A program made the translations under genes and the position numbers. The notes beneath the pieces were generated by a model that did not search any database, was not told the DNA's origin, and saw nothing but the letters and a program-made list of their open reading frames with translations. DNA of 64,000 nt from Fimbriimonas ginsengisoli Gsoil 348. Lineage in GTDB: Bacteria; Armatimonadota; Fimbriimonadia; Fimbriimonadales; Fimbriimonadaceae. The DNA lies in the NCBI GenBank assembly GCA_945881865.1, contig CAMCVK010000008.1, positions 62,001 through 126,000 on the forward strand, written 5' to 3'. Positions 4,524 through 23,584 of this stretch are shown here, piece after piece (the first letter of the stretch is position 1; every line of letters begins with the position of its first letter).

Positions 4524-5414
4524 TTGAATCAAAACATTGAACCCAAACCCGCTGCCTTATTTGTTGATTACGAAAATGTTTACTACTTTATCAAAAACAG
4601 ATTAGAGGATCAAGGTAAAGCAACCGACGTCACCAACGAACTGATCCGCATTCTGCGCGCAAAGCTTCAAAGCGAGCTAGGTCTGCCGTGCATCTTGATG
4701 AACGCGTACGCCGACTTTGACCGGATCGAAGACAGCCCAATGGCCCCGCTCTACTTGATGGGTGTCGAGCCGCACTACGTGCTTGGCACCGATCACAAGA
4801 ACGCCGCCGATATGCACCTGGCCATCGATGCGCTAACGATTTTCTACACCCGGCCGGACATCGTCGGCTTCGTTCTGGTCGCCGGAGACCGCGACTACAT
4901 CCCGCTGCTGCAGCATCTTCAGCAGCACGCAAAGCGAGTATTGGTCGTGGGATTCGTTCAGAACGCTAGCGGTGACCTGATCCAGATCGTCGGAAAGGAG
5001 AACTTCTTAGACGCTGGAAAGCTATTGCCGGAAGGCACCGTTTTGCGCGAACCGGTTGCCGTCCAGGTTGAAAGACCGAAGGCGCCCGAGTCGTTCGAAG
5101 AGTTCATCCGAACGCCGGTGCCGGTTAACTCGCCGTTCAAGTCGTTCCGCAAGCTCGAGTCCGAACAGCAACGGAAAGCCTTGGAGATCATGCTCACGCA
5201 CTTTGGCGAGAAGCCAGAAGTTTGGTTCACCCCCTACCTAAACCGGTTGCGAAACGAAATGCCAACCCTCGAGGAGTTCGAACGAAAGGCGATTATCTCC
5301 AGCCTTGAGATGGCCGGCGCGGTTGCGGTGCAAAAGCGGCGCGGCGAACAGTATGACTATTCCGTCATTTTGGTCAACTGGGACCATCCGGATGTTCAAG
5401 ACCTTAACCCGTAA
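4524..5414 (+). CDS. NYN-domain (LabA/DUF88-like) putative RNase
   Basis: 296 residues. Residues 8-150 form a NYN/PIN-like nuclease domain: LFVDYENVYYF with the first acidic residue, then KNAADMHLAIDAL and VLVAGDRDYIPLLQHL with conserved Asp residues that would bind a divalent metal. Residues 200-290 form a separate helical/winged-helix-like domain, the layout seen in NYN proteins that pair a nuclease with an RNA-binding domain such as OST-HTH. Start is TTG 4524, supported by GAGGA at 4512-4516. The next gene begins six bases after the stop, so the two are probably cotranscribed. The RNA target is unknown. Confidence 0.85.
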   Translation: MNQNIEPKPAALFVDYENVYYFIKNRLEDQGKATDVTNELIRILRAKLQSELGLPCILMNAYADFDRIEDSPMAPLYLMGVEPHYVLGTDHKNAADMHLAIDALTIFYTRPDIVGFVLVAGDRDYIPLLQHLQQHAKRVLVVGFVQNASGDLIQIVGKENFLDAGKLLPEGTVLREPVAVQVERPKAPESFEEFIRTPVPVNSPFKSFRKLESEQQRKALEIMLTHFGEKPEVWFTPYLNRLRNEMPTLEEFERKAIISSLEMAGAVAVQKRRGEQYDYSVILVNWDHPDVQDLNP

Positions 5415-5420
5415 AGCGAA

Positions 5421-6350
5421 ATGAGCCAGCCAACGCCCGCCGGACGTTGCCCAACCTGCGGGAGAACTTACCCTGGCGCAGCGAAGTTCTGTCCGGAAGA
5501 CGGCGCCCGGCTGGTGCCGATCTCGGGCCCTGATCCATCCTTCAACAAGCTGACTGCGCCCGCCAAACCCCAGACAGTGGTTTCCGGCGGGGCACCAGCG
5601 CCCACCGCGGTCCCAAGAGAACCATCGGTCCGTATTCCGGCGTCACCCCAGCCAGGCCCATCTCCCGCGCTCGCCCGAAATTTCGCCTTGGGCCTTCTCG
5701 CGGTCGTTCTTGTGGCCGCCGGAGCTGGAATCGGTGCTCTGAACCGGCCAGCATCGATTGAGCCGAAGGCAGCCACAAAAACGATCGAACCGCCGGTGCC
5801 AGATCCAGGCTCGATTGCCAAAAGCGATCGGCCCGCCGAACCAACAATCGAAGTATCGACGCCAAAACAGTCGGATCCCGAGCGAACCGAACCGGCGAAG
5901 TCGATTCCCGAGAATCGCTGGACGTCTCCGTTCTTCGACCTCGAACTTGCTCCCGGATGGGAGTACCTGAAGCGGCAAGCCGATGCAACTTACACGGGGA
6001 TCAGCTTTGCGTCGCCAGACGGAAAAGCCGTCATCCGCATCGACCGAACGGACCCGAGGTCGGGAGAAATCCTGCCCTTCATTGAGGCCCGTCGAAAGCG
6101 CTTTGCCAAGGGTCCGGCGTTCTTCCGCGAAGTCTCCTTTGCAGAAGCCATCCGAAAAGGCATCTCTGGGTACCAGTGGAACTTTGATCGACTGGATGCG
6201 AAACGAGGCGTCCTGCGGAAAGAGATTTTCTACTTCTCCATAGAGAACCGCGCGGGAGCGGTGGAAATGAACGCGCCAACTGAGGACTTCGAGCGGCACC
6301 GGGCCGACTTCGAATCGATGTTCGACAGCCTCGATCTCTCGCGATTCTAA
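5421..6350 (+). CDS. Zinc-ribbon membrane protein with PsbP/DcrB-like C-terminal domain
   Basis: 309 residues. The N-terminus has a zinc-ribbon-like CPTCGRTY...FCPEDG (three Cys visible), followed by a Pro/Ser-rich linker, one membrane segment at about 88-108, a second Pro-rich linker, and a folded domain from about 170 to 305 opening SPFFDLELAPGWEY. Such a domain after a stem resembles the PsbP/DcrB group of extracytoplasmic proteins, so the cytoplasmic zinc ribbon and the external domain would be joined across the membrane. It follows the NYN gene by six bases. Function unknown; two other proteins in the window (9646-10734 and 49704-50504) have a similar strand-rich character. Confidence 0.75.
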   Translation: MSQPTPAGRCPTCGRTYPGAAKFCPEDGARLVPISGPDPSFNKLTAPAKPQTVVSGGAPAPTAVPREPSVRIPASPQPGPSPALARNFALGLLAVVLVAAGAGIGALNRPASIEPKAATKTIEPPVPDPGSIAKSDRPAEPTIEVSTPKQSDPERTEPAKSIPENRWTSPFFDLELAPGWEYLKRQADATYTGISFASPDGKAVIRIDRTDPRSGEILPFIEARRKRFAKGPAFFREVSFAEAIRKGISGYQWNFDRLDAKRGVLRKEIFYFSIENRAGAVEMNAPTEDFERHRADFESMFDSLDLSRF

Positions 6351-6373
6351 CCGCTTAAGCGACGAAGCGAGCG

Positions 6374-6379
6374 TACAAT
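6374..6379 (+). promoter_or_regulatory. -10 box TACAAT, leaderless start of symporter gene
   Basis: TACAAT ends six bases before the ATG at 6386, so the predicted transcript starts at the A of the start codon. No Shine-Dalgarno sequence is present. Confidence 0.6.
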
Positions 6380-6385
6380 ACGCGC

Positions 6386-7693
6386 ATGTCTGAAGCCCGT
6401 CGCGGGATGCCCCTGCACACCAAGATCCTGATTAGCCTGTTGCTAGGTGCCGTCGTCGGCGGTATTGCCCAGGTCACGTTGGGAACCAAGAACGAGGGGC
6501 TCAAGTGGTTCGTGGATAACATCGCGACGCCCGGCGGAAACATCTTCCTTTATTTGCTGTTCATGATGGTGGTTCCGCTCCTGTTTTCCGCCCTCATTTT
6601 GGGAGTTGGGGACCTGGGCGACGCGGCAAAGGTGGGAAAGATTGGCTTGCTTTCTCTCGCGATGACCATCATCCTCAGCGGAACCGCGGTCGTGATCGGC
6701 GTAGTCGGCGTCAATCTCGTCCAGCCCGGAAAGATCATCTCCGAGCAGAAGCGGAGCGAGCTCGTTGCGCAGTTCAGCGATAAAGCCGCGGCGGACAAGA
6801 ACCTAGAAGCCGCCAAGAAGGCACCCGACGATCCACCTGTTCTCGGATTCATACCGAAGAACCCGTTCAAAGAAATCAACCGGGCGCTGGAAGGCGGCCT
6901 GCTGCCATTCATGTTCTTCGCGCTGTTCTTCGGCGTTGCCCTCGCGGCCATCGAGCCCGAGAAGGCAGCGCCGGTGAGGGCGTTCTTCGAGGGCATCTTT
7001 GCGGCCAGCCAGAAGGTGATTGAATACGCCATGCGCTATGGGCCGATCGGGGTCTTCTTCCTGGTGTTCAAGACGACGGCCACGCTGGGATTCGAGCTTT
7101 TTGGGGCACTCGGGGTGTACGTGCTACTGGTCCTCGCCGCGCTCGCCCTGCACCAGTTCGGAACCTACTCGCTTGTCCTTCAATTCGTCGCGAAGCGAAA
7201 CCCGCTGCAGTTCTTCAAGCAGATGCGATCAACGATGATGTTCGCGTTCGCGACGAGCTCCAGCAACGCCACGTTGCCGACCGCACTCAAGGCCGCCGAG
7301 GACGAGGTTGGACTGCCGAAGGACATCAGCTCGTTCGTCCTAACGGTTGGCGCTACCGCTAACCAAAACGGTACGGCGCTCTTTGAAGGCATCACCATCA
7401 TCTTCTTGGCGCAGATGTTCGGCGTTGATCTCACGCTTGCCCAGCAGTTCACCGTCATGGGACTGGCGATTGTCGCCGGCATTGGCACGGCCGGAATCCC
7501 CGGAGGCGCATGGCCGATGATCGCGACGATCTTGGTGATGTTCAAAGTTCCCGCGGAAGCGATTGGTATCGTCATCGGCATAGACCGGATCCTCGACATG
7601 AGCCGTACCGTACTGAACGTGACCGGCGACATGACAATTGCCGCTTGTGTTGCGCGGCTTAGTGGGCACAACCGGCAGGTCGCCGAGGTCTAA
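6386..7693 (+). CDS. Dicarboxylate/amino acid:cation symporter (DAACS family)
   Basis: 435 residues with the hydrophobic pattern of a GltP/DctA-type transporter (eight membrane segments plus two re-entrant loops). The serine-rich motif ATSSSNATLPTAL and the VGATANQNGTALFEG segment, which form the substrate and sodium sites in this family, are intact; IGTAGIPGGAWPM follows. It should import glutamate/aspartate or C4-dicarboxylates with sodium or protons across the inner membrane; the exact substrate cannot be read from sequence. A loop of about 50 residues between the early membrane segments (QKRSELVAQFSDKAAADKN) is longer than usual. Start ATG 6386 is six bases after TACAAT. Confidence 0.93.
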   Translation: MSEARRGMPLHTKILISLLLGAVVGGIAQVTLGTKNEGLKWFVDNIATPGGNIFLYLLFMMVVPLLFSALILGVGDLGDAAKVGKIGLLSLAMTIILSGTAVVIGVVGVNLVQPGKIISEQKRSELVAQFSDKAAADKNLEAAKKAPDDPPVLGFIPKNPFKEINRALEGGLLPFMFFALFFGVALAAIEPEKAAPVRAFFEGIFAASQKVIEYAMRYGPIGVFFLVFKTTATLGFELFGALGVYVLLVLAALALHQFGTYSLVLQFVAKRNPLQFFKQMRSTMMFAFATSSSNATLPTALKAAEDEVGLPKDISSFVLTVGATANQNGTALFEGITIIFLAQMFGVDLTLAQQFTVMGLAIVAGIGTAGIPGGAWPMIATILVMFKVPAEAIGIVIGIDRILDMSRTVLNVTGDMTIAACVARLSGHNRQVAEV

Positions 7694-7697
7694 GGGA

Positions 7698-7703
7698 TAT
7701 CCT
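7698..7703 (+). promoter_or_regulatory. -10 box TATCCT, leaderless start of DinB gene
   Basis: TATCCT ends seven bases before ATG 7711. The box lies within 5-10 bases of the symporter stop codon, so the DinB gene seems to have its own promoter. Confidence 0.5.
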
Positions 7704-7710
7704 AAATTCG

Positions 7711-8163
7711 ATGAACGAATCCCTTCTCAAAATGCTCCAAGAGCACGTGGAAATGACGGTAGATCTTTACCGAAAAGATCTCCATGCCTTCGCTCCGAAT
7801 GACCTGACGCGTTCGCCCGGTGCACCGGCGCGATCTGCCGCCGACATCGTCTTTGAAGTGATCCTAAATAATCGCCGGGCGTCTCGACGGCTTCGAGGAG
7901 AAGACGCCGGACCTGGTCCTGGCTTCCCGGCGTGCCCACCAGAGCTCCAATCTGCCGAAGCCCTGGCCACCGAAGTTGCCGACTCTTGTGAAGAGCTGCT
8001 TGCGGCAGTCGGGATGGATCCTTTCCGAATGATTGAGTACCCCGGCGGAAGCGAGATCGCACTTTCCTACGGAGAGTTCGCGGTTCTTCACATGCAGTAC
8101 CACTTGGGCCAGCTGAACTACCTGCAAACAGTTTTTGGCGACGCCGAAATTCACTGGGGCTAA
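7711..8163 (+). CDS. DinB-superfamily protein
   Basis: 150 residues, the usual size for DinB/YfiT four-helix-bundle proteins. The pattern includes an early helix (LLKMLQEHVEMTVDLY), a central NNRRASRRLRGE helix and the terminal GEFAVLHMQYHLGQLNYL with the His-x3-His arrangement typical of the metal site. Members include thiol S-transferases and DNA-damage-induced proteins, most with unknown substrates. The stop codon is interlocked with that of murB on the other strand: the tetramer at 8160-8163 encodes both stops. A second DinB-like gene lies at 14586-15005. Confidence 0.75.
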   Translation: MNESLLKMLQEHVEMTVDLYRKDLHAFAPNDLTRSPGAPARSAADIVFEVILNNRRASRRLRGEDAGPGPGFPACPPELQSAEALATEVADSCEELLAAVGMDPFRMIEYPGGSEIALSYGEFAVLHMQYHLGQLNYLQTVFGDAEIHWG

Positions 8164-9095
8164 TCGGGCCGAAAGCCCGACCAGTCTCCGAGGTACAGCA
8201 CCTCTTCTTCAAGCTGCACGCCAAATCGGTCGAACACCGATTTGGCGACCTTCTCCGCCAACCGGCGAATGTCCGTCGCGCTGGCCCCGCCGACGTTGAG
8301 GATGAAGTTTGCGTGGCGGACTCCCACCCTGGCACCGCCAATTTGATGGCCCTTCAGGCCGACGGCTTCAATCAGATATCCGGCCGGGGTGACCCCCGCC
8401 GCCTTGAGAGCAACCGGCAACTGATCCAGTGACTCCGCGAATGCTTGGTCCTCGACGTTCTTAAAGAAGCTGCCCGCGCTGGGCGATGGTGGCTGTTTCG
8501 AGATTCGCTGACGCTGAAACTCCCGCGCCGCGTCGTAAATCGCGACCGGGTTCCCGGTTTCCAGCCGTAACCGAACCCTAGTTATCGCCGCATTGGGCGG
8601 GTTTGCCCGCCTTAAAACTGAGTTACGGTAGGAGAATTCCATCCAGCCCGGCCGAACCCACTTTCGTTGGCCTTCATGGACGATCTCGATTTCAACCAGA
8701 TGTTTCGAGATAGCCGAACGATAGGCACCCGCGTTGCTCACGAGGGCCCCGCCCAGCGTGCCGGGAATGCCGACCGCGAACTCAAGGCCGGCGAGCCCAG
8801 CTTGCGCTGCCTTCAGGAAAAGCTCTTGGAAGCCACAGCCGGAGTCGGCCACAACTTCCCCATCGGCAAGAATTTCGATCTTGCGCGCTTCGTTGCGAAT
8901 CGTCAGGCCGGGAACGCCGGCATCGCTCGGAAGAACATTGCTTCCCCAACCCAGGATGGTCACCGGGCCAGCAGCTTGTGCTTGCGCGAGCGCAGCGCAC
9001 AAATGCACGTGCGTCCGCACGATGGTGAATCGTTCGGCGGCCCCGCCGGCGCGCAGCGTCGTGAAGGGCCGCAGCGAGACGTTCGTCTGGATCAT
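8160..9095 (-). CDS. murB: UDP-N-acetylenolpyruvoylglucosamine reductase
   Basis: 311 residues. MurB reduces UDP-GlcNAc-enolpyruvate to UDP-MurNAc with NADPH and FAD in the cytoplasm, the second committed step of peptidoglycan synthesis; murA for the first step is at 30819-32099. The FAD-binding domain has TTLRAGGAAERF and LGWGSNVLPSDAG; the substrate domain has PSAGSFFKN, carrying the catalytic serine, and ends with LEEEVLYLG, carrying the late glutamate. The start ATG overlaps the tsaB stop by four bases, so it is translated from the tsaB-led operon. Confidence 0.95.
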   Translation of the reverse strand: MIQTNVSLRPFTTLRAGGAAERFTIVRTHVHLCAALAQAQAAGPVTILGWGSNVLPSDAGVPGLTIRNEARKIEILADGEVVADSGCGFQELFLKAAQAGLAGLEFAVGIPGTLGGALVSNAGAYRSAISKHLVEIEIVHEGQRKWVRPGWMEFSYRNSVLRRANPPNAAITRVRLRLETGNPVAIYDAAREFQRQRISKQPPSPSAGSFFKNVEDQAFAESLDQLPVALKAAGVTPAGYLIEAVGLKGHQIGGARVGVRHANFILNVGGASATDIRRLAEKVAKSVFDRFGVQLEEEVLYLGDWSGFRPD

Positions 9096-9649
9096 GCTGG
9101 AAGCCGCCGTTTTGAAACCGAGATGCTCGGCTCGATGAGATAGTTCGGCATCAACTGTTCCGGCGCTTGCCAGTCAAGCAGTGAAAAGATGGGACCAAAG
9201 CCTATGGCCGTTGGAAAGTGATCATCCCCTCCAAAGCCGAACCCGGTGAAACTTCCAGCCGGAAGCTCAACGGTTCGGGAAGGCACTTGCCCCGGCTCTC
9301 GAACGAAAAACTCACCACGTTTACTGGGGAAAACGACCTTGCCCGTATGTGAGATGAGATCAAAAGCCGTCGCGCCTGCGGCGTCAACGCCCTGGGCATA
9401 GGCGAGCGTCTTCGCCAGTACGATTGCCACCCGGGAACCGGTAAACGAGCCGGGCCCGAGGTCGGCGGCGAAACCGGCTATGTCTCCCGGCCCGATTCCC
9501 GCCTGCTCTAAACCCTTCGTTAGCAGGTTCAGAAGCACCTCGCCGGCACGGTAGCCCGCCGTATCCGACCCCGCAAAGACCAATTGGCCTGAGGCATCAA
9601 AAAGCGCGACGCTCGCAACCGGAGATGAGGAACTGAAGGCCGCAATCAC
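9092..9649 (-). CDS. tsaB: tRNA threonylcarbamoyladenosine biosynthesis protein TsaB
   Basis: 185 residues of an ASKHA-type fold. The N-terminus (MIAAFSSSSPVASVALFD) and ADLGPGSFTGSRVAIVLAKTLA match TsaB/YeaZ, the scaffold partner of TsaD and TsaE in making the t6A modification next to the anticodon of ANN-decoding tRNAs. It is shorter than many TsaB proteins because the C-terminal part is reduced. It overlaps the upstream 9646-10734 gene by four bases and murB by four bases, forming a tightly coupled three-gene unit. Confidence 0.9.
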   Translation of the reverse strand: MIAAFSSSSPVASVALFDASGQLVFAGSDTAGYRAGEVLLNLLTKGLEQAGIGPGDIAGFAADLGPGSFTGSRVAIVLAKTLAYAQGVDAAGATAFDLISHTGKVVFPSKRGEFFVREPGQVPSRTVELPAGSFTGFGFGGDDHFPTAIGFGPIFSLLDWQAPEQLMPNYLIEPSISVSKRRLPA

Positions 9650-10734
9650 GGAATCAGCTCAATCCGAATTCCGTTCAAAAGCTCAAATAGGGTGCGCTTC
9701 TGGTCGGCGAACTGGTTCTCTTGCTTGCGCATCGCACCTCGCCCCGTCGCGGCGGGCAAGCTGAGCCGATAAGCAAACGTGAGGTAAAAGTCGCCGGTTC
9801 GAACTACAGCATCCAAGCTCGCCAAGCCGCCGTCTTTCGAAGTTCCCCGCCGCCAGACGGTGCCGAGCGTCGATCCGGCCGGAGTCGTCTCGAAGTCTTT
9901 GTCCTCCCGAAGGTTCACGCTCGCGAACTCGGTTAGTGAGGTCCCAGAGGCGACGAACAACGCACGCGACGGCTCGGGCGAATCCAAAGTGTACGAAGCG
10001 GCCGCCAGCACTTCCCCCTTCAGCTCTCGCGAGGCGAACGTCAGCCGGCCGTTTTCGCCAACGCTGACGTTGAACCCTTTGGGATACAGAACCCGGATTC
10101 GGCGGGTGGAAACGGTGGTCTCGACCGAGAGCAGGTTCTTTGGAAGCTTCCCGGCCACCTTTCCGTCGTCGATGACGGAACGGGTGAACTTGGGCGAGAG
10201 GGGTGCCGCCGTGACGGCCGGCTTCGTCGGGTCCTCCGGCGGAAGGTTCTCGCCGTCGATGGTGGCAAAGGTTTCCAGGGCAGTTTGCCACTGGAACGAA
10301 ACCGCCTCGAACTGGCTCGTTGGGACCTTCAAGTTGAACAACAGCTTCGACTTCGTCTGGGTGTAGAACAGCCCGGTGAGGAGCGTGACCGGGGTTCCCC
10401 GTTCGGAAAACTCAAGCTGGGTCAGAAGCAGGGGCGCACCAAGCACGGTCTGCTCATACTGGCGGATGATGCTGCGATTGCTCAGCTGACCGCTCGTAAG
10501 CTGCAACTGCTGCCACGCGGCCGCGTCGCCGCGAAACTCCGCCCGGATCAGACCGACTTCCCCAGAGTCGGACCCCGTGCCCGGAATCGTGATCTTGGTT
10601 TCGCGCTTGCTCTTCTTCGATACCTTCCACGCCTTTGGGTACTTGAAGGTGAGATTTAGGGACTCGTCGCGGAAGTCCTGGAGGTCGCTTACCTGCGCCT
10701 GCGCGAGTAAGCAAACTAGAAAAGCGGAAACCAT
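9646..10734 (-). CDS. Secreted protein with two PsbP/DcrB-like repeats
   Basis: 362 residues. A short signal peptide (MVSAFLVCLLAQAQ) precedes two similar halves: about 20-160, opening DESLNLTFKYPKAWKV, and about 200-360, containing RVLYPKGFNVSVGENGRLTF. Each half fits the PsbP/DcrB pattern of extracytoplasmic proteins that open with a strand holding a conserved Tyr-Pro followed by a Trp or Phe. No enzyme motif is visible. The gene leads the tsaB-murB operon by a four-base overlap. A TAATCT box ends six bases before the ATG, suggesting a leaderless operon message. Function unknown. Confidence 0.7.
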   Translation of the reverse strand: MVSAFLVCLLAQAQVSDLQDFRDESLNLTFKYPKAWKVSKKSKRETKITIPGTGSDSGEVGLIRAEFRGDAAAWQQLQLTSGQLSNRSIIRQYEQTVLGAPLLLTQLEFSERGTPVTLLTGLFYTQTKSKLLFNLKVPTSQFEAVSFQWQTALETFATIDGENLPPEDPTKPAVTAAPLSPKFTRSVIDDGKVAGKLPKNLLSVETTVSTRRIRVLYPKGFNVSVGENGRLTFASRELKGEVLAAASYTLDSPEPSRALFVASGTSLTEFASVNLREDKDFETTPAGSTLGTVWRRGTSKDGGLASLDAVVRTGDFYLTFAYRLSLPAATGRGAMRKQENQFADQKRTLFELLNGIRIELIP

Positions 10735-10740
10735 AGCTTC

Positions 10741-10746
10741 AGATTA
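10741..10746 (-). promoter_or_regulatory. -10 box TAATCT, leaderless start of 9646-10734 operon
   Basis: Read on the minus strand, TAATCT ends six bases before ATG 10734. The box lies in the 20-base space between this gene and the histidine kinase stop. Confidence 0.55.
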
Positions 10747-10754
10747 TGCCGACA

Positions 10755-12428
10755 TCACAGCGGAACGTGAAGGACAAACCGGGCCCCTTCCCCAAAAACC
10801 CCGTTCTCGAATACGTCGCCGCCGTGCGCATCCACGATTCCTTTCACGATTCCGAGTCCCAAACCCATGCCTTTGACCCGGCCGCTGTAGAACGGCTGGA
10901 AGATAAGCGACTTCACATCGTCGGGCACACCAGGCCCGCTGTCCTCGACCTCAATTCGCACTCTCCGTTCGTCGGCGGAGAGCAGCGCCCGAACCACCAT
11001 CTCCCCGGACTCCGTGTGATGTAGCCCGTTTTCAATGAGTTCCGAGACTGCACGACGTAATCGACGGCCGTCCACATTCGCGACGGGCAGGTCAGCAATT
11101 TCAAGTCGCAGGCTCACGAGGGAACGCTTTGGGAAGACCTCCTCGGCGGTTTCTCGAACCAGCGCACCCACGTCGGTCGGCGCCTTTTCGATTTTGGTTG
11201 CCGTGACGAAATCCCGAAAGTCGTGGAGGATTTCTTCGATGCGCGTGAGGTTCGCTCGCAAACTCTCATGGAGTGTCCTGAGGTCCTGCAAGCTGGTCTT
11301 GTCATCGGCGATGAGAAATCCGAGCTCGTTCACGTCGCCCTTCAGGGCAAAAACGCGGTTCCCAATCATGTGCGAAGACTTTGCGCTGAGTTCGCCCCAG
11401 GCGATCATGCGTTCGCTCTGCACGATGTGATCGATCTGACGGATGTTTTGTAGACCCGAGGCCATCTGCTCGGCGATCGCCTGCAAAACCCGCTGGTCTT
11501 GAATTGTGAACCGGTTATCAGAGAACGGGTTCTCCGAACGCCGCCGCAGAACGCGGATGACCCCCAGAATTTCGTCTCGCCAAAGAATGGGCACCGCGAG
11601 AAAGCTGGCGATGTTCTCGTTGGGAATCTCGATGTATTTGCCGCGCCATCTCGGGTCGAGCTGAGGTTCGTCCAGCAGAATCGGCTGGCCGTGCTGGCAA
11701 ACCCACCCCGTAAAGCCTTCGCCCCGCTCGTAGGATAAGAGACCAATTTGGTCTTTCAAGCGCCCAATAGTTCCTCGCAGAACGGCGGAGTCCGTCTTCG
11801 GATCCATGATGAAGATGCTGCACGTGTGCAGCCGGAGCGTGTTCTGCGCGACGCCAATGACGCTCTCAACAAGCAGGTCCTCCGAGGTCACGGTGTCGAG
11901 CGCACTTCCGATTTGAATCAGGGCTTCCTCCCGCTTCGTGCTTTCATGACGCTCAAGGACTAAGTCGATGAGGCTTGCCAGACCCGTAACCGTCTCGTGA
12001 TGGGTTTCTGAATACGCGTTTGCCTGATCGGAAGACACGTTCAGCACGGCTCGAATCCGGTCAAAACGATCCTTGATCGGCACGGCAATCTCGCTCTGGG
12101 TCGACGAGAAAAGCGCGCGGTAAGCGGGATCATCGCGCACGCTTCCGCTCACGACGCTGGTTCCTGTCGCGGCTACCCAGCCGACCAGACCTTCCTTCGA
12201 CTGGATGTCGAGCGGGAGGTGCCGGAACTTCGCAACCGACTCCCAGCCGTCACCCGCTCCGTGCCGAACGACGAGATCGCTGACTTCGTCCTCGACGATG
12301 GCAATGAGCACGTGCGCGCTACCGGTCAGCCGCTTTGCGGCGAGTGCAATCGCGTCCAAGGCGTGGTCTACGGAGAGATCTCTCGAAATCTTCGTGAGAA
12401 GTTGAGTCCATTCGGAGAGGGCAACCAC
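10755..12428 (-). CDS. GAF-domain sensor histidine kinase
   Basis: 557 residues from GTG 12428. An in-frame extension to 12647 exists, but it would run into the divergent SIS gene and its sequence is not domain-like. Two GAF domains lie at about 15-150 and 170-320 (the second with YERGEGFTGWV and ASFLAVPILWRDEILGV). They precede a dimerisation region around GELSAKSSHMIGN, where the His is the likely phosphorylation site, and a HATPase domain with ELIENGLHH, DSGPGVPDD and GMGLGLGIV. There is no membrane segment, so it senses a cytoplasmic signal. The H-box is unusual: SHMIGN rather than HE(I/L)(R/K)NP. No response regulator is adjacent, so it is an orphan kinase. Confidence 0.87.
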   Translation of the reverse strand: MVALSEWTQLLTKISRDLSVDHALDAIALAAKRLTGSAHVLIAIVEDEVSDLVVRHGAGDGWESVAKFRHLPLDIQSKEGLVGWVAATGTSVVSGSVRDDPAYRALFSSTQSEIAVPIKDRFDRIRAVLNVSSDQANAYSETHHETVTGLASLIDLVLERHESTKREEALIQIGSALDTVTSEDLLVESVIGVAQNTLRLHTCSIFIMDPKTDSAVLRGTIGRLKDQIGLLSYERGEGFTGWVCQHGQPILLDEPQLDPRWRGKYIEIPNENIASFLAVPILWRDEILGVIRVLRRRSENPFSDNRFTIQDQRVLQAIAEQMASGLQNIRQIDHIVQSERMIAWGELSAKSSHMIGNRVFALKGDVNELGFLIADDKTSLQDLRTLHESLRANLTRIEEILHDFRDFVTATKIEKAPTDVGALVRETAEEVFPKRSLVSLRLEIADLPVANVDGRRLRRAVSELIENGLHHTESGEMVVRALLSADERRVRIEVEDSGPGVPDDVKSLIFQPFYSGRVKGMGLGLGIVKGIVDAHGGDVFENGVFGEGARFVLHVPL

Positions 12429-19118: not shown

Positions 19119-19135
19119 AGCGGGCTAGCCCGCTT
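19118..19135 (-). promoter_or_regulatory. Palindrome at the stop/start junction
   Basis: AAGCGGGCTAGCCCGCTT is a perfect 18-base palindrome. On the minus-strand mRNA its centre is the TAG stop of the upstream gene and its last base is the first base of the TTG start of the exonuclease gene. There is no T-run, so it is not an obvious terminator. Confidence 0.5.
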
Positions 19136-19697
19136 CCTTAACCTTCACACTTCCGCTGCTGGGCCCGTAAACCATCTGCGGAACGGTGATCGGAGTTCCG
19201 CCTGTGCCCCAGTCTCGCCGCTCGCCACCCGCATATTGGAACCAGCCGGTCTCCAGGTTGCGGTCGAACTCGCCGTAAAGCCGAATGATTCCAATTCCTT
19301 TGAAGGAGGCATCGATGTCTCTGCCGAAGAACTGAACGCTTCGCACCTTGCCGTCAATCGTGATTTTGCCCTTGCCGGAGTAGGTCGCCTTCGAGAACTC
19401 TTTGCTGTCGTACTCTTTGATGACCTTGCCTTCGATCGTCATCTTTCCGTCGAGGCCGGTGATGAGGACCGAACCGTTGAAGCTGAACGACAACTTACCG
19501 GTCGGGACCACCTGGTCCGAACCGAGGAGCTTGAAGCTACCAACCTTCGAGGCAAATCGAACCGCGTCGGTGCCGACTGTTGGCGGAGGAAGCGGAACGG
19601 AAGGCCCGTCTTCGCCTGTCACCGGCATCTGACCGATGACGAGCGCGGCCGTACCGAGCAGAACGGCAGATCCAATCATCAAAAATCCAGGCTTCAT
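19125..19697 (-). CDS. Secreted protein of unknown function
   Basis: 190 residues from ATG 19697; TTG 19709 and GTG 19700 just upstream are alternatives. Signal peptide or anchor MKPGFLMIGSAVLLGTAALVIG, then a beta-rich domain (about 45-170) with repeated patterns such as GKLSFSFNGSVLITGLDGKM, which suggests a strand-repeat or OstA-like shape. No catalytic motif. The minus-strand region upstream has GATACAAT, eight bases before the GTG. It is followed without a gap by the exonuclease gene. Confidence 0.65.
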   Translation of the reverse strand: MKPGFLMIGSAVLLGTAALVIGQMPVTGEDGPSVPLPPPTVGTDAVRFASKVGSFKLLGSDQVVPTGKLSFSFNGSVLITGLDGKMTIEGKVIKEYDSKEFSKATYSGKGKITIDGKVRSVQFFGRDIDASFKGIGIIRLYGEFDRNLETGWFQYAGGERRDWGTGGTPITVPQMVYGPSSGSVKVKEAG

Positions 19698-19838
19698 CAC
19701 GTGCTCCAATTGTATCCCAGTCGTTCAAAGATAACCGAGGGTTCCGCCGTCTGGTTCCCGGCAAGGGCAAGAAGCTGAATTGCGTCCGACCCTTGCCCTG
19801 AGACAAGGTATCGCGACGAACCTCGTATCTAGAATGGG

Positions 19839-19844
19839 TATTTT
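19839..19844 (+). promoter_or_regulatory. -10 box TATTTT, leaderless start of ccmE
   Basis: TATTTT ends seven bases before ATG 19852, supporting this start over the in-frame ATG at 19834. Confidence 0.45.
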
Positions 19845-19851
19845 GAAAAGA

Positions 19852-20253
19852 ATGAAAACGGGTGCCATCGTTACCGCCGTAGTTGCTACGGTTGCGTTCG
19901 CCGGGGTTCTGGTCGCCTTCAGCTCAAACGCGAGTCCCTATGTGACCATTGAGCAGGCGAAGCACTCGTCAGGCGACCGCCTGCACCTGGCTGGGACCGT
20001 CGACCAGAAGTCGATTAGTCACGACGTTCGGGCCCGCACCCTACGGTTCAAACTCACCGACGACACTGGTGCCAAGGTTCAAGTCGTTCACCAGGGCGAC
20101 ATGCCGCCAAACCTGAGCGAAGTGAAATTTGTGGTCGCCGTCGGCAAGATGGAAGGCGGCGACTTCCGATCGACTCAGATGATCGTGAAGTGCCCCTCGA
20201 AGTATGAGGCGGACAAGAACTCCGGGGCCAATAAGCCAGCCGGGGGCAAGTAA
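19852..20253 (+). CDS. ccmE: Cytochrome c maturation heme chaperone CcmE, CxxxY type
   Basis: 133 residues. One N-terminal membrane anchor (MKTGAIVTAVVATVAFAGVL) precedes an OB-fold domain with LHLAGTVDQKSI and LRFKLTDDTGAKVQVVHQG. Classical CcmE holds heme covalently on the His of HxxxY; here the aligned site is Cys114-x3-Tyr118 (KCPSKY). CxxxY CcmE variants are known from archaea and some sulfate reducers. It acts on the outer face of the membrane, passing heme to CcmF, whose gene starts six bases downstream. No ccmABCD, ccmG or ccmH is in the window. Confidence 0.9.
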   Translation: MKTGAIVTAVVATVAFAGVLVAFSSNASPYVTIEQAKHSSGDRLHLAGTVDQKSISHDVRARTLRFKLTDDTGAKVQVVHQGDMPPNLSEVKFVVAVGKMEGGDFRSTQMIVKCPSKYEADKNSGANKPAGGK

Positions 20254-20258
20254 CCCCG

Positions 20259-22652
20259 ATGGATCTCCTTCAAGGGCTTCCCGTCGCCGAACCTTGGTCA
20301 CTCACCGCCGGAAGCATCGGCCGAGGAAGCATTCAGGCGTCAATCGGTCTCTTCTCGCTGGCGGCATTGGCCTGGCTTCTCCCCAAGCGATCCAAGCTCC
20401 TGGATAGGGTTGGCGGTAGCAGTTTCTTCCTAGGGTCTCTCGGACTCTTCGTCGCAATCATTACCCTGGGCACACTGTTCCTCCGGAATCAGTTCCAGTA
20501 CCAGTACATCTTCAATCATAGCGACGCCGATATCCCGGTTTATTACAAGGTGGCCGCTATCTGGACAGCCCAGCAAGGCAGCTTCTTGCTGTGGGGGGTC
20601 TCGTCGGCGATCTTTGGGCTGCTAAGTCTAAAGGGGACCGGAGATTATCGACGCTGGTACGGCTTCGCCTACGCCATTTTTCTGGCTAGCATTAGCGGCA
20701 TCCTTGCCTACGAGTCTCCCTTCAACATCATGAAGGATGTGATTCAGGACGGCAAGGTTTTCGTCCCGCCCATCGGGGATGGCATGACGCCGTCGCTGCA
20801 AAACTACTGGGTCGTCGTACACCCACCGGTCATCTTCCTTGGGTTTGGCGCCCTAACGGTTCCCTTCGCCTACGCGGTCACGGCCATGCTGTCGGGCAAC
20901 GTAAAGGACTGGGCGAAACAGGTCCGGCCGTGGAGCCTTGCAACGCTGTCGATTCTCGGACTTGGTTTGTGCATGGGCGGTCTGTGGGCCTACGAAACGC
21001 AAGGCTGGGGCGGCTTCTGGGCCTGGGATCCCGTCGAGAACGTGAGCCTAGTTCCCTGGTTGCTCATGGCCACGCTGACCCATGGCCTCATCGTTCAAGC
21101 TGCCAAGGGCAAGTGGATCGCCTCGAACCTGCTTCTCAGCGGCCTGCCCTTCATCTCGTTCGTTTACGGAACCTTCCTTACGCGCTCCGGGCTACTTGAC
21201 AAGGTCAGCGTGCACTCGTTCGCCAGCATGGATAAGAGCGCCCTTGTCATCCTGCGCACGTTCTTGGCGATTCTTGCGACGGCTTTTGCGGTTCTCTTTG
21301 TCGCACGCGGGCTGAAGCTGGCCAAAGCAGCGGAGGCAGCCACTCCAATGAAGGAGTCGGCCCCGGGCGTCGACCGAGAAAACACTTACCGGTTCGGCAT
21401 GCTGTTGCTCTCGATGCTTGCCGTCGTCGTGGCCTTGGGGATGAGCTGGCCGGTGATCACCGCCGTGCGCGGCGGACAGGGCGCCAGGGTCGAGGAGTTC
21501 CTCTACCACCTTGTCGTGGTCTGGTTCTTCGTTCCGCTCATGCTGATGATGGCCGTGGCGCCGTTTCTGGGGTGGAAGCCTTCATCTTGGAAGGAAATCT
21601 GGGCACGCGTAGGTAACCAGCTCGTGTTCAGCGTTGGCCTGACCGGTTTCGTCTTTGTCGGCTTACAGAACGATGAGTGGGGCGTGGTGGGCCTGGGGGG
21701 CAAAATGCTCAACGGCCCGCTGAATTCAAAATTGCCCCTGCTACCGGTGATGGCACTGCTCATCTTCCTGTGCCTTTTCGTCGCCCTAACCGGCACGTGG
21801 CGCGCGATTGAGCTGGGCCGGAAAGCCGGATTGTCGTTGGGAGGATTTGTTGCCCACTTTGGGCTGGCGATGCTGCTCGGCGGCCTGATTCTCTCCCGCG
21901 GTTTCGAACGGAAGCAGCAGGAGATGATCCAGGAGGGCTCACCGGTGCAAATGCTGGGTTACCAGGTTGCATTCACCGGTATCAAGGCGAAGGATCTGTT
22001 CGACCGAGACGGACAGGCGACGTTCACGATGACCGACGGCAAGGGTGGAGTCACAAAGATGACGCCCGGACTCTACTACTACGAGCAAGGTGAAGAGCTG
22101 AAAAGCCAAGTTTGGCCCTTCGTCGTGGTGAAACCGACCCACGACATCTACTTTGCCTTGCATTCCCCAATCACGGATGTCTGGGAAAAGCCAATCTCGA
22201 TTAAGCCCGGCGAAACCAAAATAACCGATGGCGTGAAGCTCACCTACGTGCGCCAAACCCGAACCGGCCAACCCGGAATGAGCGGAACGAAGTTCATTTC
22301 GGAAATGAAGATTGAGGTCCAAGAGACAGAGACCAAGTTCGGCAAGTACACGATTAGGCCGTATTTGGAGCTTGGCCCGGACGGCGTGAAGCCTAGCATC
22401 ACTCCGGTTGGGACGCAGTTCTTTGCCGTGCTTGGACGAATGGACGCCAGCGATCGGAGCGTCGAACTCCGGCTTCTGTTCCAGCGTCCGCTTTACCCGG
22501 TGGAGTTGTTCATTAAGCCGATGACCCTCCTCGTGTGGTTTGGAACCGGTATTCTCACTTTGGGTGGGCTCATGTCTGCTTTTGCGCGACGAGCTCGCCG
22601 CAAGCGGGCGCCAGCGGCAGAAGCGACAGATGTGGTTCCCCAAGGAATATAG
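20259..22652 (+). CDS. ccmF: Cytochrome c heme lyase CcmF
   Basis: 797 residues with about 15 membrane segments. The tryptophan-rich WWD motif GGFWAWDPVENVSLVPWL is intact, and conserved His residues lie in VVHPPVIFLGFG and TLTHGLI. A large outer loop lies between the last helices (about 555-750). CcmF joins heme delivered by CcmE to the CxxCH site of apocytochrome c in the periplasm. It forms one unit with ccmE (five-base gap) and panD (start directly after the CcmF stop). Confidence 0.95.
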   Translation: MDLLQGLPVAEPWSLTAGSIGRGSIQASIGLFSLAALAWLLPKRSKLLDRVGGSSFFLGSLGLFVAIITLGTLFLRNQFQYQYIFNHSDADIPVYYKVAAIWTAQQGSFLLWGVSSAIFGLLSLKGTGDYRRWYGFAYAIFLASISGILAYESPFNIMKDVIQDGKVFVPPIGDGMTPSLQNYWVVVHPPVIFLGFGALTVPFAYAVTAMLSGNVKDWAKQVRPWSLATLSILGLGLCMGGLWAYETQGWGGFWAWDPVENVSLVPWLLMATLTHGLIVQAAKGKWIASNLLLSGLPFISFVYGTFLTRSGLLDKVSVHSFASMDKSALVILRTFLAILATAFAVLFVARGLKLAKAAEAATPMKESAPGVDRENTYRFGMLLLSMLAVVVALGMSWPVITAVRGGQGARVEEFLYHLVVVWFFVPLMLMMAVAPFLGWKPSSWKEIWARVGNQLVFSVGLTGFVFVGLQNDEWGVVGLGGKMLNGPLNSKLPLLPVMALLIFLCLFVALTGTWRAIELGRKAGLSLGGFVAHFGLAMLLGGLILSRGFERKQQEMIQEGSPVQMLGYQVAFTGIKAKDLFDRDGQATFTMTDGKGGVTKMTPGLYYYEQGEELKSQVWPFVVVKPTHDIYFALHSPITDVWEKPISIKPGETKITDGVKLTYVRQTRTGQPGMSGTKFISEMKIEVQETETKFGKYTIRPYLELGPDGVKPSITPVGTQFFAVLGRMDASDRSVELRLLFQRPLYPVELFIKPMTLLVWFGTGILTLGGLMSAFARRARRKRAPAAEATDVVPQGI

Positions 22653-23015
22653 TTGCGGCTGTCTCAGTATCTAAAGGGAAAGATTCACCACGCGCGGGTG
22701 ACATACGCCGATCCGGAGTACGTAGGCAGTATTCAGATCGACGAACGGCTAATGCGTGAGGTTGGCATCGACGACGGCGAGCTAGTTCACGTTTGGGCAG
22801 TCGACCACAAAGCAAGGATTCAGACGTATGCGTTTTCCGGGCCGGTCGGCACGATTGGCCTCAACGGTGGGGCCGCACACTTCTTCTCCGCCGGAGACCG
22901 GATCATCGTCGCCGCGTTCGATCTTGCCGATGCGCCCATCATCCCGCGCGTCATTCTTGTGGACGACCACAACCAGATCGTGCGGGACATGACCCCGTTC
23001 TCGGTGATCGGGTGA
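22653..23015 (+). CDS. panD: Aspartate 1-decarboxylase (pyruvoyl enzyme)
   Basis: 120 residues. PanD makes beta-alanine from aspartate for pantothenate and CoA synthesis. The proenzyme self-cleaves at Gly25-Ser26 (YVGSIQID), giving the pyruvoyl group. Lys10 and His12 (GKIHHARVT) and INGAAAH-like LNGGAAHFFSAGD match the family. The start is TTG, immediately after the CcmF TAG, and the stop overlaps the pyrE GTG by four bases, so all are in one operon. Confidence 0.93.
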   Translation: MRLSQYLKGKIHHARVTYADPEYVGSIQIDERLMREVGIDDGELVHVWAVDHKARIQTYAFSGPVGTIGLNGGAAHFFSAGDRIIVAAFDLADAPIIPRVILVDDHNQIVRDMTPFSVIG

Positions 23016-23584
23016 GTTCGGCGGCTTCCCTAGGCGAGCTGTTGGAATCGAGCGGTGCGATTTTGCACGGCCACTTTATCCTCACTTCGGGACGCCACAG
23101 CGATGTGTACTTTGAGAAGTTTCGGGTGCTCGAGAACCCTGCCGTCCTTTCGGCCCTTTGCGCCGAAATCGCCGAGAGGCACCGGGATCTTTCGCTTGAC
23201 TTTATCGCCGGACCTACGACCGGAGGCATCATCATTGCCTTCGAAGTCGCCCGGCAGCTTGGGCTTCCGGCCGTTTACATTGAAACGGAGGACGGGAAGA
23301 AGACCCTCCGACGGAACAAGACACTTCCCGCCGGCGCCGTCGGTTTGATTGTGGATGACGTCCTCACGACCGGACGCTCACTGATCGAGAGTCGAGAGGC
23401 CATTGAGGCTGCGGGCGGAAACGTTGCCGCCTACGCCGTGCTGATTGACCGCTCTCAAAACGCCGAATGGGACCGACCGCTGTTTGGTGCCTACCGTGTG
23501 GAGGCAGTGTCCTACGCCGCGGATGATCTCCCTGATTGGCTGGCAGCCATCCCGGCGGTGAAGCCTGGGACCCGCGCGGCGTAG
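23012..23584 (+). CDS. pyrE: Orotate phosphoribosyltransferase
   Basis: 190 residues from GTG 23012; a longer frame upstream reads through panD and is rejected. PyrE joins orotate with PRPP to give OMP in pyrimidine synthesis. LTSGRHSDVYFEKF is the orotate-binding loop and LIVDDVLTTGRSLIE is the PRPP-binding motif. GPTTGGIIIAFEVARQLG and the flexible-loop region YIETEDGKKTLRRN are present. The GTGA overlap with the panD stop indicates coupled translation. Confidence 0.94.
   Translation: MSSAASLGELLESSGAILHGHFILTSGRHSDVYFEKFRVLENPAVLSALCAEIAERHRDLSLDFIAGPTTGGIIIAFEVARQLGLPAVYIETEDGKKTLRRNKTLPAGAVGLIVDDVLTTGRSLIESREAIEAAGGNVAAYAVLIDRSQNAEWDRPLFGAYRVEAVSYAADDLPDWLAAIPAVKPGTRAA

Follow-up and report, generated by a model that had tools for sequence, protein, structure and literature searches.

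The question raised by this locus is how a bacterium matures its c-type cytochromes with a CcmE that carries cysteine in place of the classical heme-binding histidine. The window, by which we mean the whole analyzed stretch of 64,000 nucleotides, holds ccmE at 19834–20253 on the + strand. The gene encodes a Cys-type heme chaperone of 139 residues, which matched the Pfam family CcmE (PF03100) with 64 bits, above the cut-off of 24.6. Its C-terminal end reads KCPSKY, with Cys120 (codon 20191–20193, + strand) at the position of the classical heme-binding His; the classical HxxxY motif is absent, and the CxxxY motif of System I* is present. The earlier note had rightly pointed to this replacement, calling the residue Cys114, which is the number counted from the alternative in-frame ATG at 19852; ours is counted from the in-frame ATG at 19834. 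No PDB sequence matched CcmE at an E value of 0.01, and its two nearest relatives with named records, from Fimbriimonadaceae and Fimbriimonas, showed 63% and 52% identity, respectively. The full NCBIfam models for CcmE, CcmA, CcmB, CcmC, and CcmF gave scores below their curated cut-offs.

Five bases separate the ccmE stop from the start of ccmF (20259–22652, + strand), which encodes a cytochrome c synthase of 797 residues with matches to Cytochrom_C_asm (86.7 bits) and CcmF_C (76.7 bits), both above the cut-off. An AlphaFold model of the protein (pLDDT 92.6) matched Thermus CcmF (6zmq) with Z 34.8 over 567 residues, showing the CcmF fold. The heme-site residues His188, His275, His319, and His533 are retained together with the WWD loop (residues 250–261, WGGFWAWDPVEN; 21006–21041, + strand). 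The labeling of these histidines follows in part the accessible text of PMC8975832.

The earlier note had read ccmE and ccmF as a two-gene maturation unit. This did not stand, since the genome also has ccmA, ccmB, ccmC, and a small ccmD, grouped on contig C13 and thus apart from ccmEF. The order there is ccmA-ccmB-ccmC on one strand, downstream of a speE-like gene (locus L005), and the one further Cytochrom_C_asm protein of the genome is CcmC, beside the single CcmB. A profile search recovered CcmD as a 44-residue membrane protein overlapping the 3' end of ccmC, with a profile built from 11 small membrane proteins encoded after ccmC at other loci of the phylum; the protein matched no Pfam or NCBIfam model and is recognized by the phylum-made profile alone. 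The Pfam CcmD model matched only one of 201 phylum genomes, below the cut-off, and it misses the Thermus and Deinobacterium controls too, and is therefore too insensitive here. An ORF scan behind ccmC, which allowed too little overlap with ccmC, found no ccmD in L005 or in four loci with ccmC from the family and sister family; a small membrane ORF was seen in 11 of 19 loci. A loss of ccmD in the lineage was considered and rejected, because the phylum profile recovers the gene.

CcmH (PF03918) was not found in this genome, a draft of 26 contigs, whereas the E. coli, Caulobacter, Thermus, and Deinobacterium controls were positive. ResB, the marker of System II, was likewise not found in the genome, with five control genomes positive, and a DsbD/CcdA-type protein is present. 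CcmA, CcmB, CcmC, CcmD, and CcmF, the further components of System I*, are all present, CcmD being known by the phylum-made profile only. The search for ccmA, ccmB, ccmC, and ccmH elsewhere in the genome, which had been proposed at the outset, therefore gave the first three on C13 and no ccmH, and this result supports the suggestion that the cytochrome c system is a reduced one. A profile search of the genome (98.2% complete, 3.23 Mb, 26 contigs) gave a single CcmE, so that there is no second copy of the His type, and no complete classical ccm operon was found in it, as ccmABCD lies apart from ccmEF and CcmH was not detected.

The genome also encodes substrates for such a pathway, with five PF13442 cytochrome matches. 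One gene cluster encodes a protein with five CXXCH motifs, a monoheme cytochrome, and CoxB with a cytochrome c domain; going by gene order, the same cluster presumably also encodes the rest of an alternative complex III and an SCO-like protein. A separate locus encodes a glucose/sorbosone dehydrogenase-like protein that carries a cytochrome domain. Since both the ccm genes and their substrates are present, the c-type maturation pathway looks complete and needed. Very probably, the pathway is System I*, complete but with its genes scattered, and ccmE codes for its heme carrier and ccmF for its synthase.

The surroundings of the pair were compared across the family of the window. Directly after ccmF lies panD (22653–23015, + strand; PF02261, 105.6 bits), its frame starting with TTG at the first base past the ccmF stop. 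The next frame (23012–23584, + strand) overlaps the end of panD, opening with GTG 4 bases inside it, and its homologues keep this order in the window's family; we take it to be pyrE-like, the name pyrE coming from the earlier note. The gene order over 19834–23584 agrees with the claim made there that the pair is linked to panD-pyrE instead of to ccmABCD/GH. Adjoining ccmE on the other side is a divergent gene (19125–19709, – strand), kept here across much of the family, whose product of 194 residues matched no Pfam or NCBIfam family.

Among 35 CcmE loci from 32 genomes of the family other than the window's own, 29 have ccmE next to ccmF, and in 25 panD comes after ccmF. The gene ccmC lies within the CcmE locus in 3 of these 35 loci, as opposed to 15 of 20 loci from other families; panD follows ccmF in two of the 20 (L082, L099) and additionally in L075, from the sister family. 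CcmE and CcmB were encoded within 10 kb of each other in 3 of the 32 family genomes having both, the window's own included (G070, G153, G161; positions judged by eye). The separation of ccmABCD from ccmEF is typical of the window's family. Because the loci of other families mostly keep ccmC by ccmE, with panD sometimes after ccmF, the panD linkage looks inherited. Most simply, the ancestor had a joined ccmABCDEF cluster, in some cases with panD behind it, and ccmABCD left this cluster in the window's family. The panD gene is not thought to be part of cytochrome maturation, and we saw no sign of such a role. Three genomes of the family (G153, G196, and G198, with loci L062, L072, and L073) have two full CcmE copies each, the second sitting with another ccmF, away from panD.

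The spread of Cys-type CcmE was examined in 201 genomes of Armatimonadota. CcmE was found in 127 of them, CcmB in 136 (123 above the cut-off), and CcmH in 3, leaving 198 with none; the phylum-made CcmD profile matched 110, and 27 of 34 in the window's family. The distinct CcmE sequences from phylum loci keep Cys in 67 of 67 and Tyr in 66 of 67, the exception (L089) reading CPSKE, and with this degree of conservation chance is not an issue for the Cys motif. In the GTDB species collection, the pattern [LMI][LIV]xKCPSKY[EQD] occurred in at least 592 stretches, at least 534 of them confirmed; the pattern cannot detect His-type CcmE and is thus silent on the ratio of Cys to His. Its best 80 matches include Acidobacteria, Calditrichota, Zixibacteria, Selenomonas, Desulfovibrio, Eisenbacteria, and Chloroflexi. 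The CxxxY form had been attributed to archaea and some sulfate reducers; it is indeed a known variant, but it is not confined there, being found in chloroflexi, firmicutes, and many more bacterial groups. The accessible text of PMC3601427 likewise places variant CcmE in chloroflexi and firmicutes, describes it as mostly CPSKY, and gives CcmH to about one third of the bacteria that have it.

Several other observations were made in these searches. Ten genomes of the window's family gave extra weak PF03100 matches, which we rejected as second CcmE copies, as the alignment ends before the motif; the four inspected (L076–L079) are without the heme motif, and two that were scanned also weakly match OB-fold nucleic acid families. 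The gene in L076 (4806–5216, similar in L077–L079) encodes an OB-fold protein, seemingly secreted, which is scored as CcmE but has no heme motif, and it adjoins a phosphoribosyltransferase frame. Genome G200, 98% complete and of the same genus as the window, encodes CcmB along with many cytochromes and gave no CcmE match in the profile search; G177 has CcmE and CcmF and gave no CcmB match. A Halobacterium noricense plasmid (L196, 4144–13320) carries an archaeal ccm set with CcmB, a CcmE having neither CxxxY nor HxxxY, a CcmF of 800 residues, and an annotated CcmD family protein of 39 residues. This annotation sits ill with the accessible text of PMC9084895, according to which ccmD is absent from archaeal genomes.

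In loci without CcmH, the last periplasmic loop of CcmF is longer by about 100 residues, as measured from an Asp (D629) to the KP (P754) that precedes the last membrane helix. The best CcmF frame of more than 500 residues from each locus was aligned (123 rows), and 9 duplicates were dropped. The results showed that the D-to-KP distance was 20–26 residues in all 10 distinct loci with CcmH, which come from E. coli, four proteobacterial plasmids, Pseudonocardia, Metabacillus, and three phylum genomes. It was 116–237 residues in 100 of 102 CcmH-less loci, left from 104 after two truncated rows (L151, L178) were dropped, where absence of CcmH is genome-wide for phylum genomes and within approximately 6 kb or less on either side for L100–L179; the distance in the window is 124. 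The exceptions, with a short loop and no CcmH, are L157 (Chloroflexi), whose contig ends 365 bases past ccmF, and L091 from G019, a genome in which a genome-wide search found no CcmH; both have, by eye, a small CcmI-like frame after ccmF. Since four loci (L083, L098, L186, L195) join Cys-type CcmE with a short CcmF and CcmH, the insert tracks CcmH and not the type of CcmE. The ccm set of L195, with these three features, lies at 5382–12358 of the Metabacillus plasmid pB218.

In a tree of the CcmF core (112 taxa), the 12 short CcmF fell on one side of a single branch (support 0.964). A single split means one historical event, and the locus counts therefore overstate the evidence; the association of the insert with CcmH is suggestive only. 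A rank test on the alignment (p 1e-7) was set aside, as it treats relatives as independent. The accessible text of PMC9084895 reports that in Methanosarcina, where CcmF is split, ccmF1 represents the C-terminal segment and that its loss still leaves a little holocytochrome; since some remains, the C-terminal part of CcmF may by analogy help without being essential. A literature search that took in few subscription papers found no published tie of the insert to the loss of CcmH; such a report may be in print, and the point may be new.

The insert is predicted to form an extra beta domain at about residues 639–744 of CcmF (22173–22490, + strand), as delimited by the structural match. CcmF residues 550–754, folded alone with 44 relatives, gave an all-beta model (pLDDT 97.0), and a structural search of 999 chains returned only two with Z of at least 8. 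These were 6zmq (Z 9.7, 96 residues aligned) and, as the best match outside CcmF, CcsBA 7s9y (Z 9.4, 89 residues aligned, 3.1 Å, 9% identity). The latter match places residues 90–195 of the domain model, which correspond to the insert, on chain residues 101–305, a range that according to the accessible text of PMC10663686 takes in the beta cap loop (Tyr245, Phe240) over the heme site; the same text gives ordinary CcmF a beta-stranded periplasmic part of its own. Another entry, 7s9z, reached Z 7.8, as did the best unrelated row, and Foldseek ranked 7s9y first, weakly (E 0.025, TMq 0.24). No ResB sequence match to the insert was found among 45 members at E 1, nor in a PDB profile search at E 10, and a CcmH-like fold is absent from the structural matches listed. 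As a lead from the model, CcmH-independent synthases may share a cap domain.

These results bear on other readings of the locus. The pathway could be a classical System I with a CcmH that escaped the search through a gap in the draft, which is 98.2% complete in 26 contigs, or through strong divergence, and one third of the bacteria with Cys-type CcmE are said in the accessible text of PMC3601427 to keep CcmH. We consider this improbable, however, given that PF03918 was negative both in this genome and in 198 of the 201 phylum genomes and that the window CcmF is of the long form, tied to CcmH absence in 100 of 102 loci. It is very improbable that we are dealing with a streamlined CcmABCEF pathway of the archaeal style, devoid of CcmD: the phylum profile finds the 44-residue membrane protein at the end of ccmC, and CcmD in 110 of 201 genomes, even if the Pfam model gave nothing above the cut-off in the 201 genomes and the ORF scan past ccmC found none in this one. 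The distribution of the ccm genes over two contigs could also suggest the remnants of a disused pathway, but the heme-site residues are retained, 29 of 35 family loci keep ccmE beside ccmF, and the genome has CXXCH proteins while System II was not found in it, all of which makes this reading barely credible.

In a working System I* pathway, CcmABCD, encoded on C13, would load Cys120 of CcmE with heme, whose iron would lie near Tyr124. From CcmE the heme would pass to the WWD/His site in CcmF, and CcmF would attach it without CcmH to the CXXCH motifs of exported apocytochromes. We infer both the attachment to the Cys and the sequence of these steps by analogy with related systems. In the accessible parts of these papers, Methanosarcina CcmE needs its Cys for heme attachment (PMC9084895), and a Desulfovibrio set of the same kind, lacking CcmH and CcmG, yielded holocytochrome when placed in E. 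coli, the Cys-type CcmE binding heme covalently (PMC3601427). D. vulgaris CcmE is reported, in the accessible text of PMC3884852, to bind heme non-covalently through Cys, and covalent binding by the window CcmE is therefore not certain.

The extra beta domain of CcmF would cover the heme site or hold the substrate, a task that CcmH aids elsewhere, and it may thereby stand in for the missing CcmH; this role is newly proposed here. Tentatively, and with rather more doubt than confidence, we suggest that CcmF is anciently divided into a short kind, which depends on CcmH as a partner, and a long kind, which needs no partner because a beta domain with a CcsB beta cap-like fold would hold the apocytochrome and guard the heme site; the length of the loop, and not His or Cys in CcmE, would tell the kind. 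The loop length is thus a possible sequence mark for predicting CcmH dependence, and the question of how CcmF works without CcmH, raised in the accessible text of PMC9084895, becomes testable through the insert.

The present analysis extends the known System I* variant to a little-studied phylum, Armatimonadota, with a complete-looking set. The System I* of Desulfovibrio was reportedly studied by Allen 2006 and Goddard 2010. Like it, the window's genome has a Cys-type CcmE with CPSKY, CcmABCD and CcmF, and no CcmH was found; Desulfovibrio CcmF (L128) has the same kind of insert, with 129 residues between the landmarks as against 124 in the window. Unlike in Desulfovibrio, ccmABCD lies on another contig and ccmEF is joined to panD-pyrE. 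The streamlined CcmABCEF of Methanosarcina, as described in the accessible text of PMC9084895, resembles the present set in its Cys-type CcmE, the lack of CcmH, and the use of several loci, and differs from it in that CcmF is split there and one protein here, where CcmD is also present. The likeness to System II CcsBA (7s9y) is confined to the insert, and the remainder of the protein is CcmF. With the classical System I of E. coli K-12 (L184), the window's genome shares homologues of CcmA, CcmB, CcmC, CcmE, and CcmF, and the four His and the WWD loop of CcmF, whereas E. coli K-12 has a His-type CcmE, CcmH, CcmG, and a short CcmF.
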